DNA of 64,000 bases, from NCBI RefSeq assembly GCF_003061025.1, contig NZ_QAIL01000037.1:1-64000 (forward strand). The letters run 5' to 3'. Positions within the stretch are counted from its first letter, which is position 1. Each line of letters opens with the position of its first letter. The stretch is from Pedobacter sp. HMWF019 (lineage in GTDB: Bacteria; Bacteroidota; Bacteroidia; Sphingobacteriales; Sphingobacteriaceae). A model generated the notes under the pieces. The model made no database searches. It was not told where the DNA came from and saw only the letters and a program-made list of their open reading frames with translations. Made by a program: the position numbers and the translations under genes. This document shows, one piece after another, positions 37,510 through 50,716 of the stretch.

Positions 37510-38580
37510 TTATTGAAGTTCTACAGGGTATGTGTTTTTTCCATTACTCCAGGTCCCGGTCATCTTTCCATTAGAAGGCAGAGAAATCAGAAAAATGGCA
37601 GGTGTATTTTCCTTACCATCCATACTGTCTTCTTTCATTTTTAACTGTCCTTTCTCCATACTACACCTTAGGTTGATCTCCTTTCCAACCTTGTCATAGT
37701 AATAGGAGGCATAAATCCGGTCTTTATAAATCCGGTCAATCACTAAAGTAATCGCATATTGATGATTGATCTTTCCAGTATAAAGCCCTTCATGAAAGCC
37801 TTTTGCAATAGCTGGACTGCAGTTCGCATTTTTGGTCAGTAAAAGGCATTTAACATAAGCGTTCAGATATGGTTCCAGAGATTTTACAGTTAAGCGGTTA
37901 TTATAAACATCTGCTTTGTCTTCCAGTGCCTGGAAATAATGTTGCCCCGAACAAGACCTCCTGATGAGCAGTAAGCCCTCCTTTTGGAATTTCAGGTCAT
38001 CGTCGTTGAGCTCATCCCCATCCATATCCCGGAGACATTCTGAATAGGTCGTATAAACAGCTTTATGCTCCCCGGTAACATCTTTCATGGTTTTGAGATA
38101 AGCACTCAACCGTTTCTTGCGATTGGAAATCACCATCTTATTTATGGCTTCATACCCAGCATCCGTAAGCAAGTCCCTGAATTTAATCAGTTTTCCGGTA
38201 GAAGCATCAAAATTATAGACATGTCCATATTCATTGAGAGAAGCCGAACTGTATTCTCCGTTCACCTCCACCGAAAAGATCTGGCTGGTATTATTCAGCA
38301 CAGTATACCTCAATCCGGTTACCCCCTGATTGGAGCCAGCAGCCGGCCTTATAGATTCAAAAGGACTTTGCTTATACTTACCAGGCAGACTGTGCAGCTC
38401 AGCACCATGCAAAAAAGTATTGATTTGCTTTTCAGCAGACGTTTTCCCGGTTAAAAGGAAAAAATCAAGGTCTTCCTCACTAAATTTTTTAAGCTTGAAA
38501 TGTTGCGCCTGAACGGACACAGAAAGCGTCAGAAACGCCAATACAATCCCCACTCTTTGTAGATAGATGTTCAAATTCAT
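37510..38580 (-). CDS. Secreted protein of unknown function, possibly DUF3298-related
   Basis: A 356-residue exported protein: residues 1-25 form a signal peptide ending in VSVQAQ. The middle contains GEYSSASLNEYGHVYNFDAS and GKLIKFRDLL, which resemble the DUF3298/RsiV-like extracellular fold, where a strand-rich domain follows a phrase of the type NFDxxTGKxLxLxDLF. The match is by eye and weak. The C-terminus (about 260-356) is a small beta domain ending in MTGTWSNGKNTYPVELQ, like a lipocalin-like or META-like module. It is alone on its strand between two copies of a structured repeat. No enzymatic motif is seen and no function is proposed. Confidence 0.6.
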   Translation of the reverse strand: MNLNIYLQRVGIVLAFLTLSVSVQAQHFKLKKFSEEDLDFFLLTGKTSAEKQINTFLHGAELHSLPGKYKQSPFESIRPAAGSNQGVTGLRYTVLNNTSQIFSVEVNGEYSSASLNEYGHVYNFDASTGKLIKFRDLLTDAGYEAINKMVISNRKKRLSAYLKTMKDVTGEHKAVYTTYSECLRDMDGDELNDDDLKFQKEGLLLIRRSCSGQHYFQALEDKADVYNNRLTVKSLEPYLNAYVKCLLLTKNANCSPAIAKGFHEGLYTGKINHQYAITLVIDRIYKDRIYASYYYDKVGKEINLRCSMEKGQLKMKEDSMDGKENTPAIFLISLPSNGKMTGTWSNGKNTYPVELQ

Positions 38581-38629
38581 ATTGTTTTCTTAGGTAAACA
38601 AAGATTAGAAATTTCTTTGGCTTAGCGAG

Positions 38630-38782
38630 GAAGGGAAGAGAATTATGTCAGAAAATTCTGTACAGCTGCTTCAAGACTAACGATATCAGATCCGCTGAAG
38701 GAGCGGACAGATCTCTGAGGTCTTTCCGCAGCGTACGAAAATTTTCCGCAGCAAATTGCAGAGAAGGGTGGTGACCGGGTAA
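38630..38782. repeat. Structured repeat, copy 2
   Basis: Second copy of the repeat, about 50 bp upstream of the gene at 37510. Conserved blocks include ATTCTGTACAGCTGCTTCAA, ACTAACGATATCAG, AGATCTCTGAGGTCTT, GCAAATTGCAGA and GGTGACCGGGTA. The tip hairpin is TCCGCT (38691-38696) with AGCGGA (38702-38707): two base pairs differ from copy 1 but pairing is kept, again around five bases. This argues for selection on the folded form rather than on the sequence. Confidence 0.75.
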
Positions 38783-38837
38783 GACGTATCAACTCCTATA
38801 CGCCCAGCCCGGACTCTCCCCCCAGCTAAGCGCCCAG
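38783..38837. other. Spacer between repeat copy 2 and the cysN terminator
   Basis: A C-rich stretch (several CCC runs) with no ORF of useful length, no promoter element and no clear stem. Together with 38581-38629 it makes up the unexplained part of this gap. Confidence 0.4.
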
Positions 38838-38934
38838 AAAAAATCGATATTACTCAGAGGAGACCTCAGCTTTCGAAGCAGGCCGCAAAGCGGCGCGCAG
38901 AAAGCGTAGTATCCGAAGAGTATATCGATTTTTT
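38838..38934 (-). terminator. Large branched hairpin ending the sulfate operon
   Basis: Arms AAAAAATCGATATTACTC (38838-38855) and GAGTATATCGATTTTTT (38918-38934) are complementary apart from one bulged base. Inside are a second stem (GCTTTC 38869-38874 with GAAAGC 38900-38905), a tip of GCCGC-AAA-GCGGC (38882-38894) and a side hairpin GAGG-AGA-CCTC (38857-38867). It lies 3 bp after the cysN stop and, on the minus strand, ends in six T, so it can end the operon. It is far larger than a usual terminator. Confidence 0.6.
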
Positions 38935-38936
38935 AC

Positions 38937-40187
38937 TTAATAGCTTACATTTCTAAACATCAATGCAGCTACGGTCAGATTTGTCCTGCTGTCCACCAAT
39001 ATCGCCGCACCATTTGCCTTATTCTCGGTATATAAGTCAAAAGGCAACTCATCAGCCGTTTTCAAAACCACACGTCCAATATCGTTCAGCTTAAAATCAT
39101 GCGCATCCTGTTTTGCAAGCGTATTGATATCTACTTTATATACAATCTCCCTAATCTTACATTTAGTGATCTTACTATTGTGCTGCAGCAAATACGTAAT
39201 ACTGTCATCCAGCGGACGCGCATCCATCCAGCACAAATCTGCCTCAATCACCTGCGAACTTTGCGGTAAATGATCAGAATTCACCAATACATCACCCCTG
39301 CTGATGTCAATATTATCTTTCAGGTGAATCGTAACCGACTGCCCTGCAAAAGCCTCTACAGGTCTTTGATCAAAGATCTCTATCCGGTCAATCACAGAAC
39401 TGTGCCCGGAAGGCAACACCGTTACCTTATCATCAACATTAAAAGAACCACTCAAAATACGGCCAGCGTAACCACGATAATCATGTAATTCATCCGTCTG
39501 TGGGCGGATCACCCATTGCACAGGCATCCTGGCCAGGTTATAAGGCAATGCATCTTCCACATCCACACTCTCCAGAAAATGCAATAAACTTCTACCCTGA
39601 TACCATTGCATATGCTCAGACTCATTGACTACGTTATCCCCTTTCAAAGCACTCACCGGAATGAAGGTCACCTCCTTAAGGTTAAGTTCTGCCGCCAAAG
39701 CCTTATATTTCTCCGTAATCGCATTAAATACCGTCTCACTGTAGCCTACCATGTCCATTTTGTTTAGGCACACCACTACATGTTCTATACCCAGCAAAGA
39801 AACCAGGTAAGAATGCCGGATGGTTTGTTCCACAACGCCATTACGGGCATCAATCAGGATGATCGCCAGTTTCGCTGTGGAAGCACCGGTAACCATATTT
39901 CTCGTATACTGAATATGACCAGGGGTATCGGCGATAATAAATTTACGCTTTTCCGTCTGGAAATATTTATAAGCAACATCTATAGTGATACCCTGTTCCC
40001 GCTCCGCCCTTAAACCATCTGTTAAAATCGCCAGGTCAATAGTACCGTCATCATTTTTACGGTTACTGGCCTGCAGCGCTTCCAGCTGATCGGCCAAGAT
40101 AGAATCTGTATCATATAACAAGCGGCCAATCAGCGTACTTTTACCATCATCAACACTACCTGCTGTAAAAAATTTTAATATGTTCAT
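38937..40187 (-). CDS. cysN: Sulfate adenylyltransferase, GTPase subunit
   Basis: A 416-residue EF-Tu-like GTPase whose GTP hydrolysis drives APS formation by CysD. The P-loop is AGSVDDGKST, switch II is DTPGH and the guanine motif is NKMD, followed by SALKG. Two beta-barrel domains (about 220-416) follow, including WVIRPQTDELHDYRGYAGR. Length matches a stand-alone CysN; there is no fused APS kinase (CysC) domain, in keeping with an APS reductase in the same operon. The ATG shares a base with the cysD stop codon, so translation is coupled. Last gene of the operon. Confidence 0.95.
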   Translation of the reverse strand: MNILKFFTAGSVDDGKSTLIGRLLYDTDSILADQLEALQASNRKNDDGTIDLAILTDGLRAEREQGITIDVAYKYFQTEKRKFIIADTPGHIQYTRNMVTGASTAKLAIILIDARNGVVEQTIRHSYLVSLLGIEHVVVCLNKMDMVGYSETVFNAITEKYKALAAELNLKEVTFIPVSALKGDNVVNESEHMQWYQGRSLLHFLESVDVEDALPYNLARMPVQWVIRPQTDELHDYRGYAGRILSGSFNVDDKVTVLPSGHSSVIDRIEIFDQRPVEAFAGQSVTIHLKDNIDISRGDVLVNSDHLPQSSQVIEADLCWMDARPLDDSITYLLQHNSKITKCKIREIVYKVDINTLAKQDAHDFKLNDIGRVVLKTADELPFDLYTENKANGAAILVDSRTNLTVAALMFRNVSY

Positions 40188-41092
40188 TAAAAATACCCTC
40201 CTTTCTTACGGTCTTCCATAGCGGCTTCCGATACTTTATCATCCATTCTGGCACCACGTTCACTAATTTTAGATGCACTGATTTCAGCGATAATATCATC
40301 CAGCTCAGTCGCATCTGAACTGACCGCAGCAGTACAACTCATGTCACCCACTGTACGGAAACGTACTTTTTTACGTTCAACGATATCTTCCTCATCCATA
40401 TTTAAAAAAGGAGAGGCAGCCATTAGCTGGCCATTTCTGGTAATACAATCCCTTTCGTGTGCGAAATAAATAGAAGGCAATTCCATTTTCTCTCTTTTAA
40501 TGTAATTCCATACATCAAGCTCTGTCCAGTTGCTGATTGGAAAAACCCTTACATTCTCTCCTTTATGAATCCTTCCGTTGTAAATGTTCCAAAGTTCCGG
40601 GCGCTGACGTTTTGGATCCCACTGCCCAAACTCATCCCTAACTGAAAAAATACGTTCTTTCGCTCTTGCTTTTTCTTCATCTCTCCTGGCTCCGCCAATA
40701 CAGGCATCAAAACCGTATTTAGCGATGGTATCCAGTAAAGTCACGGTTTGCAAAGCATTTCTGCTGGCATTTTTACCGGTCTGTTCAATCACTTTCCCTT
40801 CATCAATGGATTCCTGTACATAACCCACAATCAGTTTCTCACCAATTCTATCAATCATCTGATCACGAAAAGTGATGGTTTCTTCAAAATTGTGGCCTGT
40901 ATCTATATGAACCAGTGGAAAAGGAAATTTTCCAGGCCGGAATGCCTTTTCAGCAAGACGAACCAGCGTAATAGAATCCTTACCTCCGGAAAATAATAAA
41001 GCTGGTTTTTCAAACTGACCCGCTACCTCACGTAAGATGTGAATGGCCTCCGCTTCCAGCTCATCTAAATAATCTAAATTAACCTTACTCAT
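40187..41092 (-). CDS. cysD: Sulfate adenylyltransferase, catalytic subunit
   Basis: A 301-residue ATP-pyrophosphatase-fold enzyme that joins sulfate to AMP from ATP, giving APS. The PP-loop is LLFSGGKDSITLVRLA near residue 35; other typical segments are FPLVHIDTGHNFEET, CIGGARRDEEKARAKERIFS and FPISNWTELDVWNYI. The C-terminus SERGARMDDKVSEAAMEDRKKGGYF is that of CysD. The gene lies 10 bp after cysH and shares one base with cysN. Confidence 0.96.
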   Translation of the reverse strand: MSKVNLDYLDELEAEAIHILREVAGQFEKPALLFSGGKDSITLVRLAEKAFRPGKFPFPLVHIDTGHNFEETITFRDQMIDRIGEKLIVGYVQESIDEGKVIEQTGKNASRNALQTVTLLDTIAKYGFDACIGGARRDEEKARAKERIFSVRDEFGQWDPKRQRPELWNIYNGRIHKGENVRVFPISNWTELDVWNYIKREKMELPSIYFAHERDCITRNGQLMAASPFLNMDEEDIVERKKVRFRTVGDMSCTAAVSSDATELDDIIAEISASKISERGARMDDKVSEAAMEDRKKGGYF

Positions 41093-41102
41093 ATCTTATT
41101 TC

Positions 41103-41810
41103 TTATTGTTGAGTGGCATGTAAACCACATTCTTTTTTTGACTGATCTTCCCACCACCATCTTCCGGCACGAAAATCTTCTCCTTCTCTTACTGCACGGG
41201 TACAAGGTGCACAGCCAATGCTGGGAAAACCTTTATCGTGCAAGGTATTGTATACCACGTTGTTTTCTTTAATATAAGCCTTTACTTCTTCCAATGTCCA
41301 GTTGAACAAAGGATGAAACTTCAACAACTGATTGCCTTCATCCCATTCTATATTACTCATATCATGACGGTTCAAAGATTGCTCTCCCCTAATCCCGGTT
41401 ACCCAGATTTTTTTACCGTTTAAGGCCCGCTTTAAGGGTTCTATCTTGCGGATATGACAGCATTCTTTCCGGTTTTCTACAGATTCATAAAAGCTGTTTG
41501 GCCCTTTCTGATCAACCATAGCTTGCAAAGGCGCCGCTTGTGGAAAGTAGGCATGAATTTTCTTTTTATAAATCTCCAGGGTACGGTTCCAAACATAATA
41601 AGTTTCCGGAAACAATCTCCCGGTTTCCAGTGTAAACACCTCTATTGGAACATCATTTCTGAAAATTAAATCGGTAATCACCTGGTCTTCCCAGCCAAAG
41701 CTGGTTGAAAAGGTAATTTCTCCGGGATATTTTTGTGCAAAATACTGAAGTGACGCCACCGGGTCCAGGCCCTGTATGTCTTTCGCGATATCTGCTAAAT
41801 AGGTATTCAT
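41103..41810 (-). CDS. cysH: APS reductase, [4Fe-4S] type
   Basis: A 235-residue enzyme reducing adenylyl sulfate to sulfite with thioredoxin. The adenylyl-sulfate fold starts with ITFSTSFGWEDQVITDLI. Cluster-binding cysteine pairs are present in KECCHIRKIEPL and in GCAPCTRAVREGEDFRAGRW, which marks the APS-using, iron-sulfur branch rather than the PAPS-using E. coli type. The catalytic cysteine is in the C-terminal ECGLH. The absence of an APS kinase gene in this operon agrees. It lies 4 bp after the siroheme-synthase/TauE gene. Confidence 0.93.
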   Translation of the reverse strand: MNTYLADIAKDIQGLDPVASLQYFAQKYPGEITFSTSFGWEDQVITDLIFRNDVPIEVFTLETGRLFPETYYVWNRTLEIYKKKIHAYFPQAAPLQAMVDQKGPNSFYESVENRKECCHIRKIEPLKRALNGKKIWVTGIRGEQSLNRHDMSNIEWDEGNQLLKFHPLFNWTLEEVKAYIKENNVVYNTLHDKGFPSIGCAPCTRAVREGEDFRAGRWWWEDQSKKECGLHATQQ

Positions 41811-41814
41811 TGTC

Positions 41815-43278
41815 TTAAAACAATTTTAAAATAAAACCAAAGATGCTGCGCAGGCTCACCAGAATCACAATAATCCCTACGGCTACCATAATGGTTTTCA
41901 CAGAGATCTTATTGGACACCCTCGCTGCAATAGGTGCCGCCAAAGCGCTGCCGATAACCAAGCCTGCAACCGCTTCCCAGTGGGCACCGTTCAACATCGT
42001 TAAAAAAGTTAAAGAACTCATCGAAGCTATAAAAAAACGGGTAATTTTTACCGTTCCTAAAGAAAATCTTGGATTTCTACCTCCGGCAATTAAGCTGGAC
42101 AAAACAATAGAGCCCCAGCCTCCTCCGCCTACCGCATCAATAAAGCCACCAAGCAGCCCCAGCAAAGAAATTTTCTTGATCTTTCCTTTTGCAGTTGGCT
42201 TACCGGTTTTATAGGCTTTAGATAGGATCACCCCGCCCAGAATCAAGGTATAAATAGAAACCAGCGGTTTGGTGTACTGGCTGTAGTGCTCCAGTGAGGA
42301 CAACAAATAAGCTCCCGCTACTGCACCCAGGATACCAGGAATGATCAGTAAACGGAACAGTTTCCAATTCACATTACCCATACGATAATGCATCCAGCCC
42401 GCAATTCCATTGCTCAGAATCTCTGATAAATGGACCGCCATACTGGCTGATGCAGGTGGGATACCCATTGCAAGAGAGAAAGAAGTAGAGGTTACCCCAT
42501 ACGACATACCTATTGCACCATCAATCATCGCAAAAACAAATCCACCCAGCAAGAACCAATAGAATACAGGATTCAGGTTGAGCAGGAAAGTTTGAAACTC
42601 TGGTTCTTTATGCCAAAAAACAGCAATGACTACAGAGATGGACAGCACAATAGTGATCCAGACCAGCCATTTAAAGTTCAGTTTCATCGCTTTGCTTTTC
42701 TGGTCTTCGACCAGTAAGGAAGTAACTTTGTTGAGCTTCTTAACCTTATCTGTAAAATCACCTTCTAGTTTATTTCTGAGTTCCTGCATCTGTTGAAGAG
42801 TTATATTTAATTCGTCGGGTAAACCATCATTTAAAGTTTCTTTCAGTCTTTTGGCAATCGTTGGCGATTTTCCGTTGGTGGATATCGCAATTTTCAAGTC
42901 TCCTTTTTTAACAATGGAGCCAAGATAAAAATCACACAGCTCGGGTTTATCTGCAAAATTGGCGAGAATCTTCCGTTCCTTGGCTGCCGCACGGATTTTC
43001 TCGTTTAAATCTGCATTATTGGTTGCAGCAATGACCAGTTCCGCCGTGTCCAGATCTCCAAGTTCAAAGGCTCGCTGCGTAAGGCTTATATTTGGAAATT
43101 TTGCTGCCAGTTCTTTCAATTGGGGCAAAATTTCCAAAGCAACCAAGGTGATCTTTGCTGAAGGGCTGTTGTTCAGTAGTGCAGATAATTTTTCTAATCC
43201 AACAGGCCCTCCGCCCACTACCAGTGTATGTAAAGTATCTAGCTTAATAAAAACGGGAAATAACTGGTTGCCTTCCAA
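41815..43278 (-). CDS. Fusion of siroheme synthase (Met8/CysG-N type) and TauE/SafE permease
   Basis: A 487-residue protein with two parts. Residues 1 to about 190 are a precorrin-2 dehydrogenase/ferrochelatase: NAD-binding VVGGGPVGLEKLSALL, then ANFADKPELCDFYLGSIV with the catalytic aspartate and KIAISTNGKSPTIAKRLKE. After a charged linker, residues 200-487 are a TauE/SafE (TSUP) permease with about eight TMs, including GAIGMSYGVTSTSFSLAMGI and the repeated half GGFIDAVGGGGWGSIVLSSL. The first part makes the sirohaem needed by the sulfite reductase of this operon; the second could carry sulfate in or sulfite out. No other sulfate transporter is in the operon, so import is my guess. Confidence 0.9.
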   Translation of the reverse strand: MEGNQLFPVFIKLDTLHTLVVGGGPVGLEKLSALLNNSPSAKITLVALEILPQLKELAAKFPNISLTQRAFELGDLDTAELVIAATNNADLNEKIRAAAKERKILANFADKPELCDFYLGSIVKKGDLKIAISTNGKSPTIAKRLKETLNDGLPDELNITLQQMQELRNKLEGDFTDKVKKLNKVTSLLVEDQKSKAMKLNFKWLVWITIVLSISVVIAVFWHKEPEFQTFLLNLNPVFYWFLLGGFVFAMIDGAIGMSYGVTSTSFSLAMGIPPASASMAVHLSEILSNGIAGWMHYRMGNVNWKLFRLLIIPGILGAVAGAYLLSSLEHYSQYTKPLVSIYTLILGGVILSKAYKTGKPTAKGKIKKISLLGLLGGFIDAVGGGGWGSIVLSSLIAGGRNPRFSLGTVKITRFFIASMSSLTFLTMLNGAHWEAVAGLVIGSALAAPIAARVSNKISVKTIMVAVGIIVILVSLRSIFGFILKLF

Positions 43279-43290
43279 ATTGTCTGTTGC

Positions 43291-44079
43291 TTAGAGTTCT
43301 TCTTTTAATGCTTTGTAAAAATCCTTGATGGGCTGGAAAGAAGGATGTAAAGAAACCACCTCTCCAAAAACGAGCAAGGCTGGTGCTTTGATTCCTTTTT
43401 CCAAAACAATTTCTTCAATGGTATCTACAATTCCGATCGCCAGTTTTTCCTCTTCGGTTGAACCACTCTGAATGGCAGCTACAGGAAGTTTATTTTTTCC
43501 TTCATTCTGAAAAAGTTTTACAATTTCTTTCAGTTTACCCAATCCCATCAGCACCACTACTGTCGCTTTCGTTCTTGCAGCTTCATAAAGGTCGTTAGAA
43601 ATGGCACCAGATGCTGTTGTACCAGTAACCACCCAAAAGCTTTCACTTAAGCCCCTGTGGGTTACCGGGATTTGCTGAAGCCCTGGAACAGAAATGGAGC
43701 TGGAAAGACCCGGAATAACCTGTACCGGAATACTGTATCCGGCAGCATAGTCCAGTTCTTCATAACCTCTTCCAAAAACAAAGGGATCTCCGCCTTTCAA
43801 ACGCACCACATGTCCGTAATTCAAGGCATAATCAACCATCAGTTTATTGATCTTATCCTGGGATAAGGAGTGTTCTCCTGATCTTTTACCCACATAAATC
43901 CGTATCGCATCTGCATGTCCGTAGTCCAGGATGGCCTCGTCTACCAAAGCATCATAAAGGATTACATCTGCTGATTTCAAGGCATTAGCCCCTTTCATCG
44001 TGATTAGTTCAGGATCTCCCGGACCTGCCCCAACTAAAGTGATTCTGGGTTCTTTGAACCCTGTTTTTTGTGTAATCAT
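43291..44079 (-). CDS. cobA: Uroporphyrinogen-III C-methyltransferase (SUMT)
   Basis: A 262-residue SAM-dependent methylase converting uroporphyrinogen III to precorrin-2, the precursor used by the siroheme-synthase domain encoded next. Motifs: VGAGPGDPELITMKGANAL, DVILYDALVDEAIL, GKRSGEHSLSQDKIN, VRLKGGDPFVFGRGYEE and VIPGLSSSISVPGLQQIPVT. Length and motifs are those of a single-domain SUMT. It overlaps the sulfite reductase gene by 4 bp and is 12 bp before the fusion gene, so it is clearly for sirohaem rather than cobalamin. Confidence 0.95.
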   Translation of the reverse strand: MITQKTGFKEPRITLVGAGPGDPELITMKGANALKSADVILYDALVDEAILDYGHADAIRIYVGKRSGEHSLSQDKINKLMVDYALNYGHVVRLKGGDPFVFGRGYEELDYAAGYSIPVQVIPGLSSSISVPGLQQIPVTHRGLSESFWVVTGTTASGAISNDLYEAARTKATVVVLMGLGKLKEIVKLFQNEGKNKLPVAAIQSGSTEEEKLAIGIVDTIEEIVLEKGIKAPALLVFGEVVSLHPSFQPIKDFYKALKEEL

Positions 44080-46169
44080 TGTTGAAACGCCCCCTCTCTT
44101 TTTGCTTTCATTTCCAGATAGAATCTTTCTGCAGCCTCCAGGTAAGTGGTTGCAAATTGTTCAGTCGGTTCATTCTTATTGATTTGCAATACCAGATCAC
44201 TGAAACTGCCATTTAGCTGTACCTCTCCGCTATCTACATAATTAGCATCAAACTCACGGATTACTCCGGCTTGTGTACTGCTATTGACACTTTTATCCAG
44301 TAACAAAGCTTTTGCTGTATTGACTAAAACACTGTAGGTATGATAGATGGCATCTGCCCAGGCACCTGCCTCATAAGATCTTCTTGCCCATCCCAGTTTT
44401 TCTTCTCCTTCCAATAAAAGGGTCGCAACCAGGTCAATCACTACACCTGCACATTCGCCCACGCCAATAGCAGTTTCAAAAGTTTCTTCATGGCCCCAGT
44501 CTACATATTCCTCATCCTTCAGATTGGTCAGATCAGCCAATGGCTTCAACAACTGATAAAAATGATCTTTGGTTAGACGATCATAATACTGGTGAAAAGT
44601 TTCTCCTTCTTCCGCTTTACCGTGGTAATCGTCCAGCACAACTCTTAAAACGGAGGTGGCTCTTTTTGAAGGGACTTTAATTACGCGCTCAGATACCCGG
44701 CCTTCACCGTCCCCTACTGTTCCACCACCCAACATCACCTGAACGGCAGGTACTACTTTGCCATTGGCTTTGACCGAACTGCCATGAAAACCAATATGTG
44801 CCAGACCGTGCTGACCGCAAGAATTCATACAGCCACTAATTTTCACTTTGATATCTTTATCATAGATTAAATGAGGATATTCTTCATAAACCAATTCTTC
44901 GAGCGTCGCCGCAAGTGACATACTGTTGGAAATTCCCAGGTTACAAGTATCTGTTCCAGGGCAGGTGGTAATGTCTGCAATACTGTCAAAGCCCGGGGCA
45001 GCAAAGCCCAGCGCGTTTAACTTTTCAAACAAAACCGGCAAGGCCGATTTACGTACAAATTTCAACAGCAAGCCTTGGTTCTGCGTAATGCGAATCTCGT
45101 CGGCAACATAAGGTTGTATTGCTGCAACGAGTTCCCGGGCCATAAATGTGCGGATATCCCCTATTCTTACTTTAATATAGACGCCGTAAAAACCTGTTTG
45201 TTTTTGTTCAAACACGTTAGTAGCCAGCCAACGCTGATAGGCCGGTGTATCTTCTGCTTCTGTCGCTTCAGCAGGTAAAGCTGGCGGCGGTTCGGGCAGA
45301 GGAACGGTATTTAGGTCGATTTTAAAACTTTTAGATTTATTGGCCGTACGTTCTTCATCTACCAGTCTTAACACTTCATCCAATCCAAGCTTTTGAACCA
45401 GATATTTTAAACGTGCTTTATTCCGGTTGTTTCGCTCTCCATAACGATCAAAAACACGCAATACAGATTCTGTATAAGGAATGATCTGATCTTCCGGAAG
45501 AAACTCATGTACCGGATGGGCTAAAAATGGTTGTGCCCCTAAACCTCCTGCAAACAAGACCTTAAACCCGCGTTCTCCTTTTTCATTAATCTTTGGAATA
45601 AAACCCAGATCATGAATATAGCTGAATGCAGTATCTTTCTCTGTTGAAGAGAAGGAAATCTTAATCTTCCGGCCCATTTCCTGGCAAATCGGATTCCTCA
45701 GGAAATAAGAAAATACAGCATGTGCATAAGGCGAAACATCAAAAGGTTCTTCCGGATTAATACCAGAATCAGGTGATGAAGTTACATTTCTAACGGTATT
45801 TCCGCAGGCTTCACGCAAGGTGATGTCATCTCTTTCCAGCTGATCCCAGAGCTCGGGTGTTCTGTCCAGGCTTACATAGTGCATTTGGATATCCTGTCTT
45901 GTGGTCAAATGCAGATTACCACTGCCATATTCATCGGCAACATCGGCTATTTTCAGCAGTTGCCTGAAAGTAACTTTACCAAAGGGCAGCTTAATGCGGA
46001 TCATTTGCACCCCAGGTTGTCTCTGACCATAAATCCCTCTGGCCAGACGCAGGCTCCTGAATTTTTCATCATGAATAAGACCTTCCCTAAAGAGACGGAT
46101 CTTTTTTTCAAGATCAATGATATCCTGCTCTACGACAGGATTTTCAAGTTCTGTTCTAAAACTTTGCAT
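44076..46169 (-). CDS. Ferredoxin-type sulfite (or nitrite) reductase with extra helical C-terminal domain
   Basis: A 697-residue sirohaem and [4Fe-4S] enzyme that should reduce sulfite to sulfide. The two ferredoxin-like/SIR repeats start near residues 55 (GVQMIRIKLPFGKVTFRQLL) and 330. Cluster and sirohaem ligands are in TCPGTDTCNLGISNS and ISGCMNSCGQHGLAHIG. Residues beyond about 550 are not part of the usual fold: a helical region with GWARRSYEAGAWADAIYHTY and SVLVNTAKALLL resembles a HEPN domain. No flavoprotein partner (CysJ) is present, so electrons probably come from ferredoxin. Context (APS reductase, CysDN) favours sulfite over nitrite. First structural gene of the operon. Confidence 0.9.
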   Translation of the reverse strand: MQSFRTELENPVVEQDIIDLEKKIRLFREGLIHDEKFRSLRLARGIYGQRQPGVQMIRIKLPFGKVTFRQLLKIADVADEYGSGNLHLTTRQDIQMHYVSLDRTPELWDQLERDDITLREACGNTVRNVTSSPDSGINPEEPFDVSPYAHAVFSYFLRNPICQEMGRKIKISFSSTEKDTAFSYIHDLGFIPKINEKGERGFKVLFAGGLGAQPFLAHPVHEFLPEDQIIPYTESVLRVFDRYGERNNRNKARLKYLVQKLGLDEVLRLVDEERTANKSKSFKIDLNTVPLPEPPPALPAEATEAEDTPAYQRWLATNVFEQKQTGFYGVYIKVRIGDIRTFMARELVAAIQPYVADEIRITQNQGLLLKFVRKSALPVLFEKLNALGFAAPGFDSIADITTCPGTDTCNLGISNSMSLAATLEELVYEEYPHLIYDKDIKVKISGCMNSCGQHGLAHIGFHGSSVKANGKVVPAVQVMLGGGTVGDGEGRVSERVIKVPSKRATSVLRVVLDDYHGKAEEGETFHQYYDRLTKDHFYQLLKPLADLTNLKDEEYVDWGHEETFETAIGVGECAGVVIDLVATLLLEGEEKLGWARRSYEAGAWADAIYHTYSVLVNTAKALLLDKSVNSSTQAGVIREFDANYVDSGEVQLNGSFSDLVLQINKNEPTEQFATTYLEAAERFYLEMKAKREGAFQQ

Positions 46170-46197
46170 GTTTATTCTAAGTTTTTGATTAAAAAAA

Positions 46198-46228
46198 AAC
46201 TTCCCCGTTGGTTAGACCGAAGAAGTTT
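46198..46228 (-). terminator. Attenuator-type terminator in the sulfate operon leader
   Basis: On the minus strand AACTTCTTCG (46227-46218) pairs with CGGGGAAGTT (46207-46198) in ten pairs, two of them G-U, around a ten-base loop. Nine T follow (46199-46191). It is complete as an intrinsic terminator, yet it lies inside the leader, 29 bp before the sulfite reductase ATG and after a short ORF, so it must be read through for the operon to be expressed. Confidence 0.8.
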
Positions 46229-46253
46229 CTATATATTTTACCCCATAACAGTC

Positions 46254-46301
46254 TTAAGCGCTGCGCCTACAACACAGGAACATCATATTATTTTTAATCA
46301 T
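46254..46301 (-). CDS. Candidate cysteine leader peptide MIKNNMMFLCCRRSA
   Basis: A 15-codon ORF, ATG at 46301 to TAA at 46254, in the 5' leader of the sulfate assimilation operon. It contains two adjacent Cys codons (TGT TGT, 46274-46269) and three Met codons in all. A promoter element lies just upstream and an intrinsic terminator lies 27 bp after its stop codon. This is the layout of an amino-acid attenuator: slow decoding of Cys codons would favour readthrough. A short alternative pairing exists between 46257-46249 and 46219-46212, but it is weak. Translation of the ORF is inferred, not shown. Confidence 0.6.
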   Translation of the reverse strand: MIKNNMMFLCCRRSA

Positions 46302-46320
46302 GGTTGTTTTGTTCATATCA

Positions 46321-46328
46321 CAAATATA
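46321..46328 (-). promoter_or_regulatory. -7 element of the sulfate operon promoter
   Basis: On the minus strand the bases read TATATTTG, a perfect TAnnTTTG. Transcription would start near 46314, about a dozen bases before the leader ORF. I see no good -33 TTTG at 19-21 bp upstream, which may mean activation is needed. The rest of the gap up to the esterase gene is AT-rich with no other feature. Confidence 0.6.
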
Positions 46329-46464
46329 TAAAGTATATAGGATATATAGTCTTTATGGATGAAATTATTTTATATATTTTTAAGAAAGGGCTATAAACCT
46401 ATAATACAAGCTACTGTAACTAGAGAAAGCTTATGAATTTTACAATAGAAAAACCGATTATAGC

Positions 46465-47274
46465 CTAGCTTTGGAAAAACTTATGGAAATAAAGTAGTTG
46501 ATAAGTGATGGCATTAGACCAGTAATCCCAGTTGTGGCTGCCAGGGCGAATAATAAAATCATGAGGAATATTATTATAGAGCAGTTTCTCATGAAATTTC
46601 AGGTTAACCTGGTAAAAGAAATCGTCTTTTCCACAATCAATAATCAGAGAAAGTTGATGTTTACTGAGCAGGGGCAACATCTCGGTTACGCTGTTTGCGG
46701 TCCATCTCTCCGGGTATTGAGCATAGGTTCCCAAACGTTTAGAGATGTTCCAGTTGTCAGGGAAAGGTCGCAGGTCAAGCCCACCACTCATGCTTCCGGC
46801 AGCGCCAAAAACATCCTGATGTTTAATCGCCAGGGAAAGCGCGCCATGTCCACCCATACTCAGCCCGGTAATGGCCCGGCCTTTTCTGGAGGCTATTGTT
46901 TTATAATGTTGATCGATCCAGCTCACCAATTCTGAGCTAACATAAGTTTCATATTTCCAGCCGGAGTCTTCCGGGCTGTCCAGATACCAGCTGGATACAT
47001 TTCCATCGGCGCAAACCAGTATCATATGAAATTGGTCGGCAACATCTTTAATGGCCGGAATATTCTTGATGTAATCGTTATAGCTTCCTCCATGACCGTG
47101 CAAAAGATACACTACAGGAAAATGAGACTGACCTTCATATCCATCTGGCAAAACAACCACGGCCTTGATATTTTTCTTCATGGAGGGACTATAGGTAAGA
47201 GCGGTATCTACTTTTGCGGCCCATAATGATGTTGTTAAAAAAATCAGCAATAGTGTTCCAAAGAGTTTGTTCAT
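46465..47274 (-). CDS. Exported esterase D-fold hydrolase
   Basis: A 269-residue alpha/beta hydrolase of the esterase D (PF00756) group. The ATG at 47274 is preferred to one at 47337 because it starts a clean signal peptide (MNKLFGTLLLIFLTTSLWA, cleaved before AKVD). The oxyanion region is VVYLLHGHGGSYNDY; the nucleophile is in RAITGLSMGGHGALSLA; the acid is in LSLIIDCGKDDFFYQVN and the base in RPGSHNWDYW. Such enzymes cleave acyl or feruloyl esters, or S-formylglutathione in cytosolic relatives; export makes a carbohydrate-ester or lipid-ester substrate more likely. Alone on its strand. Confidence 0.85.
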   Translation of the reverse strand: MNKLFGTLLLIFLTTSLWAAKVDTALTYSPSMKKNIKAVVVLPDGYEGQSHFPVVYLLHGHGGSYNDYIKNIPAIKDVADQFHMILVCADGNVSSWYLDSPEDSGWKYETYVSSELVSWIDQHYKTIASRKGRAITGLSMGGHGALSLAIKHQDVFGAAGSMSGGLDLRPFPDNWNISKRLGTYAQYPERWTANSVTEMLPLLSKHQLSLIIDCGKDDFFYQVNLKFHEKLLYNNIPHDFIIRPGSHNWDYWSNAITYQLLYFHKFFQS

Positions 47275-47457
47275 AGCAAGGGTTCGGTTTATTTTGGTTA
47301 AGATATAAAATAGGTTCAAATTTTTAAAAAAAAGCATTGACCATCTGCATTAAACGACATTCACTACCTATTTTAGAAATTACATTCTTTTTTAGGTTAT
47401 TAATTTTTTTTTCGTAAAAATAAAGAACACATTTGAAAGGAACCAATTCTTTTCATC

Positions 47458-48258
47458 ATGAATTTTGTAGTAAAAACCACTGTATTCGCCTTAACGGTAA
47501 TCATTTTTTGGGAAACCGGTTGCAGAAAAATTACGCCTTCGGAAGAAAAACCAATCGTCGTTCCTACGGTAAACAACAATCAGTTATTTATTCCTGTTAA
47601 GCTGGAATCTCCCAAACAGCAGATACAGTTGAAATACCTTGAAAACTCTAATATGCTCCTTTCTGCAGAAGATAATACGGGCAGAAAAGAGCTGATCAAA
47701 TACAACAAAAACAAATTGGCTTCCGGCTTTGAAATCTACGAAAACAACCAGATTGTTTATTCATCTGATTATTTTCGGGATGCCGGTGGCAGGGTAAATA
47801 CCATTAACCAATTTAAAATAAGCGGCCCTGCATTTACGCCTATTGGTCATCTATCGATCGGATATGATTCTGGTAACCGAATATCAGAAGTCAGCACCTT
47901 TGACTTGCATGATCGGCTATTGGAGCATAAAATTTATACTTATGACCAGCAGGATAATCTGATCCGTACCGAAATTGAAAAGCCTTCTTTAAAATCAGAG
48001 ACCTGCATTTGCACTTATGATCAAAAAAAGGGACTGTGCAACGCTGTCCCAAATGCGCTCCTGTTTAATCTAGAAAGCCAGTACAAATTCCTTTTCTATT
48101 CGGTTACAGGCAACTTATTAAGCAAAACCGCTATATCCACTGACAAAGGTTATACCTGCAGTTACGCATACAATTCGCAAAATTATCCTTCAAAACAGAC
48201 CTTAATGGAAGGCGGCCTGACGACCACCTTCACCCTGACCTACAAAACCCTTCCCTGA
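47458..48258 (+). CDS. Lipoprotein with YD-like repeats, unknown function
   Basis: A 266-residue lipoprotein: signal MNFVVKTTVFALTVIIFWETGC with the lipidated cysteine at residue 22. The mature part has repeated strand pairs of the kind YDSGNRISEVSTFDLHDRLL and YTYDQQDNLIRTEIEK, resembling YD repeats or the DUF4595-type lipoproteins of Bacteroidota, which fold as beta-sheets of xYDxxGNL units. Role unknown. It is convergent with the GH2 gene, whose stop lies 2 bp away. Confidence 0.65.
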   Translation: MNFVVKTTVFALTVIIFWETGCRKITPSEEKPIVVPTVNNNQLFIPVKLESPKQQIQLKYLENSNMLLSAEDNTGRKELIKYNKNKLASGFEIYENNQIVYSSDYFRDAGGRVNTINQFKISGPAFTPIGHLSIGYDSGNRISEVSTFDLHDRLLEHKIYTYDQQDNLIRTEIEKPSLKSETCICTYDQKKGLCNAVPNALLFNLESQYKFLFYSVTGNLLSKTAISTDKGYTCSYAYNSQNYPSKQTLMEGGLTTTFTLTYKTLP

Positions 48259-48259
48259 T

Positions 48260-50716
48260 TTATAAGTTTACAAAGGCTGTTGGAAGACCGGCTGATTTGA
48301 CGCTTGCTACACTTTTTCCTCCATTTGTCTTTACCCGGATAATGGCGCGGCCATTATAGAGCTGAACTTTTCTGGAACCGGTTGATGTTCCCTGGTCCTG
48401 GATCAGGCTGCCATCACCGGTCAAAGAGAATTCCACCAGGTTCATCGCATCCAGACAAAGGACACCTTTTGAATCAAAAGCTTTAACTTCCAGTGTGGCT
48501 ATTCCGTCCTGTTCTCCCGCTTTCTGGAGCACAAATTTAGTTGGCTTAGACCATTTATCACTTTGGTATTCCTGTTCTATCTGATCGGTCACTGTTGTTT
48601 TTCCTTTTTTGGCAACCACCTTAAAGGTATATTTTCCTTTTACCATGGGCACCTGCCAACGCAAACCTGCAGCTGGGAAATTCTGACTATTGCGCTTTTT
48701 CACACCGTAACTTTTGCCATTCACAAATAACTCCGCCTCATCACAGTTGGAATACACCTTAACCATTTTTTCTTCTCCTTCCTCACCCCACCGCACTGGC
48801 CAGCTGTGACCGTAAATGTGTGCCATAGGCTGGGTTGTCCAGTAAGACTGAAAAACATAGAAAGCTTCTTTCTTTGTGAAGTCCCTTTCTATAACACCCT
48901 TCTGATTTACATAGGGAACCGGGTTTTCCGGCCTCACAGGGGTAGAGAAATCTTTAAATGGCCAGTAAGCTGCCCCGCTTAACCAAGGCATTTTTTCCTG
49001 CTCCTTCAAGTGCCAATCGATCAGATTACTAATATAGCTTTCACTCCAATCACCATCTTTAGATACCCTTGCTGCACCACCATAAAGTGAGGCATCTCCG
49101 GCACGTTCATCTGCTCCGCCACCAATTTTAATTTTGCTTAAGGCATTGTCCGGGTTCTCCGAATGTCTTCTTGCATGACTGTCGCCACCCCATTCTACGT
49201 GTAAAAAATGATCTACTTTATTAAATTCCTCTTCACTTACTGCTTTATATTCTGTGTAATTTCCGCGGTACCAGCCTGCCCAGATGGAGGGAGAATACAC
49301 ATCGACTATGTCTTTACAGAAGTCACACCTTCGGATGGCGGTTTTTCTGGAAGGATCCAGCTGATGGGAAAGGTCGTTAAGTTCCTTCATAAATGTCCTG
49401 ATTTTCTGCTGATCAAACTCCGGGAAATCACCCGGCCAGTCGTTCTCATTTCCCATTCCCCAAATAATGATGGATGGGTGATTGTAATGCTGTTCTACCA
49501 TATGGGTCAGCATCCTTTTGGCCTGATCCTGATAGATCTGTCCACCCAAACCACCTCTGCACCATGGAATTTCTTCCCAGACCAGAATGCCCAGACTATC
49601 GCACAAGTTGAGCACAATTCTGGATTGCTGATAATGACCAAGGCGAATAAAATTTACGCCCATTTCTTTCATCATCCTGATTTCCGTCCGAATCATATCT
49701 TCGGTCATCGCGGCCGCAACATCAGCATGATCTTCATGACGGTGCGTTCCGCGCAGTAGCAATCTTTTGCCATTCAGCATGAACGGCCCCTTTTTTACAA
49801 ACTCAAAATTCCGGAAGCCTATCTTTTCTTCCTTTTTCACCGTTTCTCCGTTGGCTGTTATACTTAAGTTTACCGTATACAACTGAGGAACGTCGGGCGA
49901 CCAAAGCTTTGGCGACTTGACCTGGATATTGCTCAACAAGGAGTCGCTTTTAAACGTATTCAATTGCTTATTAAAATTATAAACCACTTTCCCAGAGGGA
50001 TTCTTCACACTAATCTTGACCATTGCTGAAGCAATCTGATCAGGATTGTATAATCTGGCTTTAATATCCAATTTACCATTTTCTCCTTTTGCATCCACCT
50101 CCGCATGGGCAAACAGCTTATCAACCGACAAAGCTGGGGTATAAACCAGATTTACATATCTATAAAGACCTCCGTACACATTAAAATCCGATAAGTTAGA
50201 AGGAATCATTTCCAAGTCTCTGGAATTGTCGCACCGAATGACCAGGGGAACTTTACCTTTAAACTGGGTCTGAAATTCAGGCCTTTTTTTAAAGGCTTCG
50301 ACAGCCTCGGTCAGATCGGCGGTCCATTCATCATAGCCACCCGTATGTTCGACTACTTTAGTGGTATAGAGATATACTTTTGTTTTCTGGCCGGCACCTT
50401 CAAAGTGAAGCAGGGTCCGTCCTTTTGCATAAGGATTATTCACATCCAGCAAAATGCGGTACCAGCCTGGGCCCTGATAGTAATTTACATCGGGATCTAC
50501 GGCATCATGTGCATTAAAACAATGTGGCAGATTTACTTTTTCCCAAATTGGCAGGCTTTCCGGATTCCCCTCTTTAACGGGCCTTACAGCTTCCCAGATT
50601 CCCCCCAGGTCTCCTTTAAGATATTCCCAGTTTTGGATGAGTCGTTTGGAGGATTGTGCATGAAGTAACGGACTGCACAGGATCAATAAGATCAAAAGTA
50701 AATTTCTCTTCAACAT
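48260..50716 (-). CDS. GH2-family glycoside hydrolase (beta-galactosidase-like)
   Basis: An 818-residue exported glycosidase; signal peptide 1-20 (LLLILLILCSPLLHAQ). Order: sugar-binding jelly roll about 25-200 (GWYRILLD, HFEGAGQKTKVYLY), immunoglobulin-like domain to about 305, TIM barrel about 305-600, then C-terminal beta domains with AELFVNGKSYGVKKRN. The acid/base is Glu424 in GMGNENDW and the likely nucleophile is Glu508 in FLHVEWGGD. The family holds beta-galactosidases, glucuronidases and mannosidases; the substrate cannot be fixed here. No susCD pair adjoins it, so it is not in an evident polysaccharide locus. Confidence 0.88.
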   Translation of the reverse strand: MLKRNLLLILLILCSPLLHAQSSKRLIQNWEYLKGDLGGIWEAVRPVKEGNPESLPIWEKVNLPHCFNAHDAVDPDVNYYQGPGWYRILLDVNNPYAKGRTLLHFEGAGQKTKVYLYTTKVVEHTGGYDEWTADLTEAVEAFKKRPEFQTQFKGKVPLVIRCDNSRDLEMIPSNLSDFNVYGGLYRYVNLVYTPALSVDKLFAHAEVDAKGENGKLDIKARLYNPDQIASAMVKISVKNPSGKVVYNFNKQLNTFKSDSLLSNIQVKSPKLWSPDVPQLYTVNLSITANGETVKKEEKIGFRNFEFVKKGPFMLNGKRLLLRGTHRHEDHADVAAAMTEDMIRTEIRMMKEMGVNFIRLGHYQQSRIVLNLCDSLGILVWEEIPWCRGGLGGQIYQDQAKRMLTHMVEQHYNHPSIIIWGMGNENDWPGDFPEFDQQKIRTFMKELNDLSHQLDPSRKTAIRRCDFCKDIVDVYSPSIWAGWYRGNYTEYKAVSEEEFNKVDHFLHVEWGGDSHARRHSENPDNALSKIKIGGGADERAGDASLYGGAARVSKDGDWSESYISNLIDWHLKEQEKMPWLSGAAYWPFKDFSTPVRPENPVPYVNQKGVIERDFTKKEAFYVFQSYWTTQPMAHIYGHSWPVRWGEEGEEKMVKVYSNCDEAELFVNGKSYGVKKRNSQNFPAAGLRWQVPMVKGKYTFKVVAKKGKTTVTDQIEQEYQSDKWSKPTKFVLQKAGEQDGIATLEVKAFDSKGVLCLDAMNLVEFSLTGDGSLIQDQGTSTGSRKVQLYNGRAIIRVKTNGGKSVASVKSAGLPTAFVNL

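Follow-up and report, generated by a model that had tools for sequence, protein, structure and literature searches.

The window, the whole stretch of 64,000 nucleotides of a Pedobacter contig that was analysed, carries on its minus strand a set of sulfate assimilation genes headed by a sulfite reductase (SiR) gene, and the closest named relatives of this SiR are found in Pedobacter, followed by Mucilaginibacter. Between the SiR start codon and an esterase gene lie a putative promoter box, a short open reading frame (ORF) with tandem Cys codons and a hairpin with a T run. The features of the locus are as follows, in 5' to 3' order on that strand.

46465-47337 (-): upstream esterase gene, in the same direction as SiR (window ORF)
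46321..46328 (-): putative Bacteroidota-type -7 promoter box TATATTTG (direct reading)
46254..46316 (-): leader ORF MNKTTMIKNNMMFLCCRRSA, 20 codons plus stop, probably leaderless (direct reading and relatives sharing the start)
46281..46286 (-): tandem Met codons directly 5' of the Cys codons (direct reading)
46269..46274 (-): tandem Cys codons TGT TGT, the putative control codons (direct reading)
46249..46254 (-): region 2 (AGACTG), the proposed 5' strand of the antiterminator, overlapping the stop codon (duplex prediction)
46240..46244 (-): second part of region 2 (GGGGT), predicted to pair with the terminator 5' arm (duplex prediction)
46222..46226 (-): region 3b (ACTTC) within the terminator 5' arm, predicted partner of GGGGT (duplex prediction)
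46214..46219 (-): region 3 (CGGTCT), inner end of the terminator 5' arm plus loop, predicted partner of AGACTG (duplex prediction)
46196..46229 (-): intrinsic terminator hairpin (RNAfold, -12.7 kcal/mol, 12 pairs)
46191..46199 (-): nine-T run of the terminator (direct reading)
44076..46169 (-): SiR (NIR_SIR domains), first gene of the operon, ATG at 46169 (Pfam PF01077, PF03460)
43291..44079 (-): tetrapyrrole methylase for siroheme synthesis (Pfam PF00590)
41815..43278 (-): siroheme dehydrogenase domain fused to a TauE/SafE transporter (Pfam PF13241, PF14824, PF01925)
41103..41810 (-): cysH-like (P)APS reductase (Pfam PF01507)
40187..41092 (-): cysD-like sulfate adenylyltransferase small subunit (Pfam PF01507)
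38937..40187 (-): cysN-like sulfate adenylyltransferase GTPase subunit (Pfam PF00009, PF22594)

The TAnnTTTG form of the box is a Bacteroidota promoter motif, and the PF01507 gene at 40187..41092 is presumably cysD, given its place beside the GTPase gene and the features of the family. The gene at 41815-43278 (-) joins a siroheme-synthesis NAD-binding domain and a TauE/SafE membrane transporter in a single ORF.

An earlier sequence-only reading of the window had given the minus-strand order of box, ORF, hairpin, nine T and SiR ATG with coordinates 46191-46328, and both order and coordinates are exact by direct reading. The same reading described a 15-codon ORF with tandem Cys codons and a ten-pair hairpin; the Cys pair is present, and the ORF probably has 20 codons, the 15-codon version beginning at an internal Met five codons 3' of an in-frame ATG at 46316. 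The longer form is shared by relatives, such as the Pedobacter locus L002 (genome G028), where the ORF MNKTTTIKNMMMPLCCKSIA has the same start as in the window, and other Pedobacter loci likewise. In most Pedobacter leaders the distance from the box start to the ATG is exactly 12 nt, and in many Mucilaginibacter leaders it is 15-22 nt; because of the 12-nt distance the ORFs of the window and of most Pedobacter leaders are probably leaderless. The hairpin and its nine T stand as described at 46229-46196, with RNAfold giving 12 rather than ten stem pairs, four of which involve bases of the T run.

At the gathering score, Rfam gave no match in the whole window or in 20 SiR-leader loci, and the five matches of a permissive scan of 46150-46480 were all far under that score; a SAM riboswitch (RF00162) was not found in the window, the SiR leader included. 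A detector that looks for Cys-cluster ORFs with a terminator behind them returned four matches in the 64 kb (both strands), the SiR leader among them. A generic terminator scan of 38000-50000 showed no excess (10 found vs 10.5 expected) and does not list the window hairpin because its 10-nt loop is larger than the limit of 8. Taken by itself, the single sequence is weak evidence, near chance level, and it is from conservation among related sequences that the significance comes.

Conservation was assessed in 110 SiR loci from Sphingobacteriaceae and a few near kin, which reduce to 101 distinct upstreams. The TAnnTTTG box stands 135-200 nt 5' of SiR in 80 of these; 71 have a leader that contains Cys and is accompanied by a hairpin, and the remaining 30 have no leader by the criteria used. 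Three loci with run-on or odd ORFs (L010, L061, L078) were scored as having no leader in this count and were excluded from the peptide, duplex and pair-count sets, and two others, L086 (GTG start) and L098 (box unmatched), were entered into the leader set by hand. A loose criterion of two Cys in four residues has a high background, matching 69/101 forward and 23/101 reverse SiR upstreams. That the ORF and its Cys codons should be conserved, which the sequence-only reading had named beforehand as a point on which it could fail, was borne out: 69 of the 70 distinct leader peptides contain Cys, 51 contain CC, and the pattern extends to 16 of the 25 families sampled across the class. The Cys codons in the 70 peptides are 107 TGT and 72 TGC. 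Excluding the start, the leader frame is composed of 13.0% Cys and 8.8% Met, against 7.7% Cys and 0.3% Met in the +1 frame and 0.9% Cys and 0.3% Met in the +2 frame; the Cys content of the +1 frame probably arises from ATG codons with T or C after them, which in that frame read as TGT or TGC.

Three alignments, with near copies and misfits left out, held 15/16 (A1), 21/27 (A2) and 23/29 (A3) of their group members. The terminator stem is kept in relatives, for example with 98.9% of cells paired in A3. RNA model R1, built from A1 and run on 37 genomes, gave four strong matches (E 1e-11 or better), all of them SiR leaders of group A, the window's group; its weaker matches, at E 0.04-1, fell on further SiR leaders or on sites where no convincing Cys leader was seen. 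Explaining the distribution of the leader over a tree of the 101 SiR proteins takes 12 or more gains or losses, eight of which are forced by well-supported branches according to a quick method. One Pedobacter-related clade (L003, L005-L008, L014, L036, L069) has no leader ORF and has its box about 66-68 nt from SiR, and it forms a natural control. Additionally, the SiR upstream of L053 has ATA at the leader start where close relatives have ATG, which looks like recent decay of the ORF.

For the wider class, 295 genomes were sampled, 68 of which had a SiR at E 1e-100 or better. The resulting set of 69 upstreams comprised those of 60 of the 68, five others, and those of the window genome and four further genomes of the same genus; G171 and G251 (missing N-termini) and L120 (a second SiR-like gene of G002) were left out. 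A Cys-cluster ORF with terminator was detected before SiR in 29/69 upstreams on the forward strand, in 0/69 on the reverse strand and in 2/1380 shuffles. A strict criterion applied to the same set, with four Cys in 10 residues, an ORF of at most 70 codons and a distance within 420 nt, matched 18/69 forward, 3/69 reverse and 5/690 shuffled sequences. The 40 upstreams with no detector match include all SiR loci of families f4 (2), f6 (4), f12 (8), f15 (2) and f54 (4), and also L204, which has a Met/Cys-rich ORF that the detector missed. Seven of the 69 SiR loci (L116, L168, L171, L174, L177, L185, L195) carry two successive leaders, each followed by a terminator of its own, and these fall in 3/3 loci of f10, 2/3 of f16, the single locus of f25 and 1/2 of f44. 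Such recurrence bears on the possibility that the hairpin is a constitutive terminator of the esterase gene and the ORF a product of chance, with no regulation involved. Near-chance statistics in the single sequence and the shared direction of the esterase gene would suit that explanation, but the promoter box sits between the esterase gene and the leader ORF, and a Cys-bearing ORF with hairpin would not be expected to return in 71 of 101 relatives and, as a Cys-cluster ORF with terminator, in 16 families; we regard it as extremely improbable.

Classical transcription attenuation needs a segment 2, just past the stalled ribosome, that can pair with the 5' side of the terminator (segment 3). 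The size of the ribosome footprint places the start of free RNA past a Cys codon held in the A site. Duplex formation was predicted for 30 class-wide leaders from 23 of the 24 matching loci outside f1 (L169, a near copy of L166, was left out), with ORF starts chosen by the analyst. Compared with shuffled segments, the 2:3 duplex had a mean z of -2.84, with all 30 values negative and 21 below -2, and the paired segment starts 8-20 nt past the last Cys codon in 28/30 leaders, matching the expected edge of a ribosome whose A site holds a Cys codon. Sphingobacteriaceae and near kin, represented by 66 distinct leaders (L012 also left out), show a smaller signal, with a mean z of -1.07, 59/66 values negative and a median segment start of 13 nt (IQR 11-17) vs 16 nt (7-27) in shuffles. 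By group the mean duplex z was -0.89 in A, -0.66 in B and -1.56 in C and D; 13/14 values were negative and none below -2 in group A, and 14/24 were below 0 in the Pedobacter group B. The window leader itself has a duplex z of -1.4, with region 2 beginning 14 nt past the last Cys codon.

The alignments give a mixed picture of the same pairing. In A1, 92.6% of the 2:3 cells are paired against 36-56% when slid, and in A3 80.5% against 20-63%, a test that favours the A1-A3 structures because they were drawn from member sequences; the covariation score of each of these two was reached by 6/500 shuffles. In A2 (Pedobacter group B) 74.9% of cells are paired against 37-67% slid, and fixed-column pair counting shows no covariation. 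Pairs changed on both sides are not above shuffles in A1 (1, with 268/500 as high) or A3 (3, 380/500), the paired cells of A1 show no excess over a shuffled mean of 91.1%, and having at least four 2:3 pairs before arm 4 does not discriminate real leaders (65/66) from shuffled ones (556/660). The predicted pairing takes the form GACUG:CAGUC plus GAGA:UCUC in clade A and, in Mucilaginibacter, GGCUG:CAGCC, often overlapping the leader stop, or GAGGCUU:AAGCCUC. For the antiterminator that a leader-peptide attenuator should possess, what was found is predicted complementarity only, weak in group B and moderate in the window. In the window, the predicted full-length fold favours the terminator, at -13.8 kcal/mol, even when region 2 is available for pairing, and the 2:3 duplex formed ahead of arm 4 reaches -8.7 kcal/mol; the terminator is the more stable, and therefore the switch would have to be kinetic.

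Met codons also cluster in front of the Cys codons. In the four residues that precede the Cys cluster (-4 to -1), Met accounts for 67/276 residues in Sphingobacteriaceae and near kin, vs 6/403 at -12 to -6, and for 34/120 vs 5/172 in the 30 class-wide leaders. Because of this clustering the leaders may read both sulfur amino acids, and alternative starts or effects of the peptide may be another source of the Met enrichment.

Combined, these comparisons argue for the SiR leader being a ribosome-mediated transcription attenuator that senses charged tRNA-Cys and probably tRNA-Met as well, a reading to which we give a probability of roughly 0.85. Attenuation by cysteine, as put forward in the sequence-only reading, is largely supported by conservation and by the predicted placement of the antiterminator, and is amended in that Met is enriched too and 30 of the 101 near-relative upstreams have no leader. 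The ORF, the Cys codons, the terminator, the complementarity and its placement come from comparing sequences, and from these we infer the transcription start, translation, stalling, the ligand, the kinetics and the expression of the six genes as one transcript. RNA polymerase would start at or next to the leader AUG, and a ribosome would load on the 5' end. With ample cysteine the ribosome would reach the stop codon and cover region 2 with its footprint, so that the terminator (3:4) would fold and RNA polymerase would stop short of the SiR operon. With scarce cysteine it would stall on the tandem Cys codons, and region 2, beginning just past the stalled footprint, would be free to pair with region 3, in the terminator's 5' arm or loop, ahead of the synthesis of arm 4. 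Formation of the terminator would then be pre-empted and the SiR, siroheme-synthesis, transporter, cysH, cysD and cysN genes would be transcribed.

The same RNA switch could be driven by the nascent Cys-rich peptide in or near the exit tunnel, through metal binding, oxidation or persulfidation and the resulting arrest of the ribosome, instead of by charged tRNA-Cys. Clusters such as CCCC, MCMCMCMCCC and CCCCC could indeed bind metal or react with sulfur species, but the leaders differ in how many Cys they have, in what order and how far apart (C, CC, CxC, as many as seven Cys), and the flanks differ between clades. Arrest peptides are not known to vary in this way. The co-enrichment of Met codons fits a response to the supply of sulfur amino acids, and we consider a peptide sensor quite unlikely.

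To follow Cys-rich leaders to other sulfur genes, the strict criterion was applied to 39 cysD loci from 161 matching genomes, 36 cysH loci from 78 (L366, with 104 bases, was dropped), 30 O-acetylhomoserine sulfhydrylase (OAHS) loci from 56 matching genomes, 19 of 30 cysteine synthase (cysKM) loci and 21 of 23 sulfate permease loci. OAHS gave 20/30 forward, 0/30 reverse and 2/300 shuffled matches. Among the genes that the sequence-only reading had proposed to search, cysH gave 9/36 forward, 0/36 reverse and 3/360 shuffled matches, joining the 29/69 SiR upstreams that have leader and terminator, and cysD gave 0/39, 0/39 and 2/390; we count the cysD result as pointing to target specificity of the Cys leaders. 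No convincing Cys leader was seen at sulfate permease (1/21 forward, 0/21 reverse, 4/210 shuffled) or at the cysteine synthase family (1/19, 1/19, 3/190).

The OAHS gene of the window's own genome (L324, G000:C140) is preceded by a SAM riboswitch (RF00162, 65.6 bits) and then by an ORF ending ICCYVMPAICMCCCIY. When 20 further OAHS loci were scanned, the riboswitch was present in 16/20 and the riboswitch together with a strong Cys cluster in 11/20. The order SAM riboswitch, then Cys-rich leader ORF, is often seen 5' of OAHS (L323, L324, L325, L326 and most of L369-L397), and the cysH genes of f36, f49 and f2 (L231, L234, L255) likewise carry a riboswitch and a poly-Cys ORF. The cysH upstream of L236 has two Cys/Met leader-terminator units in series, and the cysH upstreams of family f4 (L268, L269, L353, L354, L356) have leader ORFs with six or seven Cys codons.

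These genes also raise the question of translational control or coupling, in which the leader would govern how accessible the downstream gene's start is and the hairpin would be secondary. A terminator hairpin was detected after only 1/22 OAHS leaders, and the Cys-ORF-plus-terminator detector matched only 1/60 cysH and cysD upstreams (L236), so that the Cys-rich ORFs at cysH and OAHS mostly occur without a detected terminator. In L268 and L269 the poly-Cys codons are predicted to fold onto the cysH start region, with z from -1.9 to 0.4 across the five f4 loci against shuffled start regions; this suggests translational rather than transcriptional attenuation for the f4 cysH leaders, with a weak signal over shuffles. 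Mycobacterial cases are likewise termed translation attenuation in PMC13236596. Against this, a T-run hairpin follows the leader at SiR and is the predicted target of region 2 in most leaders, and sequestration of the start codon was not supported as a general mechanism of OAHS leaders (mean z -0.44, 22 leaders). For the SiR leader we judge translational control unlikely, and transcription attenuation is preferred. Whether the Bacteroidota class controls sulfur genes broadly by mixed Met/Cys ribosome-read leaders, single or two in series before SiR or cysH and stacked behind a SAM riboswitch at OAHS as a gate with two inputs, SAM and Cys, that involves no protein regulator, we would put at even odds.

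Classical transcription attenuators include the trp, his, leu, ilv and phe leaders. The SiR leader resembles them in that its peptide abounds in the end product, its predicted 2:3 and 3:4 hairpins compete and a terminator stands before the first gene, and differs in that its control codons are Cys and Met and that the Pedobacter leader appears leaderless. Closer in kind are mycobacterial leaderless poly-Cys short ORFs, which, according to Canestrari et al. in 2020, reportedly attenuate downstream genes in response to cysteine. Poly-Cys short ORFs of mycobacteria are also treated in PMC9031893, PMC9094748 and PMC13236596. The likeness would lie in a short ORF with contiguous Cys codons, leaderless (probably so here), and in cysteine-responsive attenuation of downstream genes; the mycobacterial ORFs belong to another phylum, are called translation attenuation in PMC13236596, and are likened here by description, without sequence comparison. 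The Bacteroidota leaders combine an intrinsic terminator and a complementary segment proposed as antiterminator, have Met codons next to the Cys codons and also occur in tandem; at another gene they are stacked with a SAM riboswitch, which lies 5' of the Cys-rich leader at many OAHS and some cysH genes and is absent from the window. By analogy, the Bacteroidota leader may work like the mycobacterial poly-Cys family, and no membership in it is claimed.

In Bacteroidota, a full-text literature search, with most subscription papers outside its scope, found no description of a Cys leader, in agreement with the sequence-only reading that knew of no such case in the phylum. Leader-peptide attenuation as such has been proposed there, for amino-acid operons of Flavobacterium psychrophilum with structured elements 5' of pheA, hisG and others (PMC9723704); phylum and general mechanism are the same as for the SiR leader, but its section on these elements names no cysteine or sulfate-assimilation operon. 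Short ORFs reminiscent of leader peptides have also been described in 5' UTRs of B. thetaiotaomicron (PMC7366714), and uORFs in other bacteria (PMC6429828). The kind is therefore already known, from amino-acid attenuation and the mycobacterial poly-Cys leaders, and a Cys-codon attenuator in Bacteroidota would be a new variant. Also new are the clustering of Met before Cys, the tandem attenuators, the Cys-cluster ORFs before cysH and OAHS, and their combination with the SAM riboswitch.

The leader would offer a reporter for cysteine limitation, and the tandem attenuators and the SAM riboswitch joined to a Cys leader would be natural multi-input RNA gates. To our knowledge, the regulation of cysteine and sulfate assimilation in Bacteroidota has been little described. 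A conserved attenuator shared by 16 or more of the families sampled would answer directly how that regulation works and would place poly-Cys leaders in a second phylum besides that of the mycobacteria, with others that may exist.
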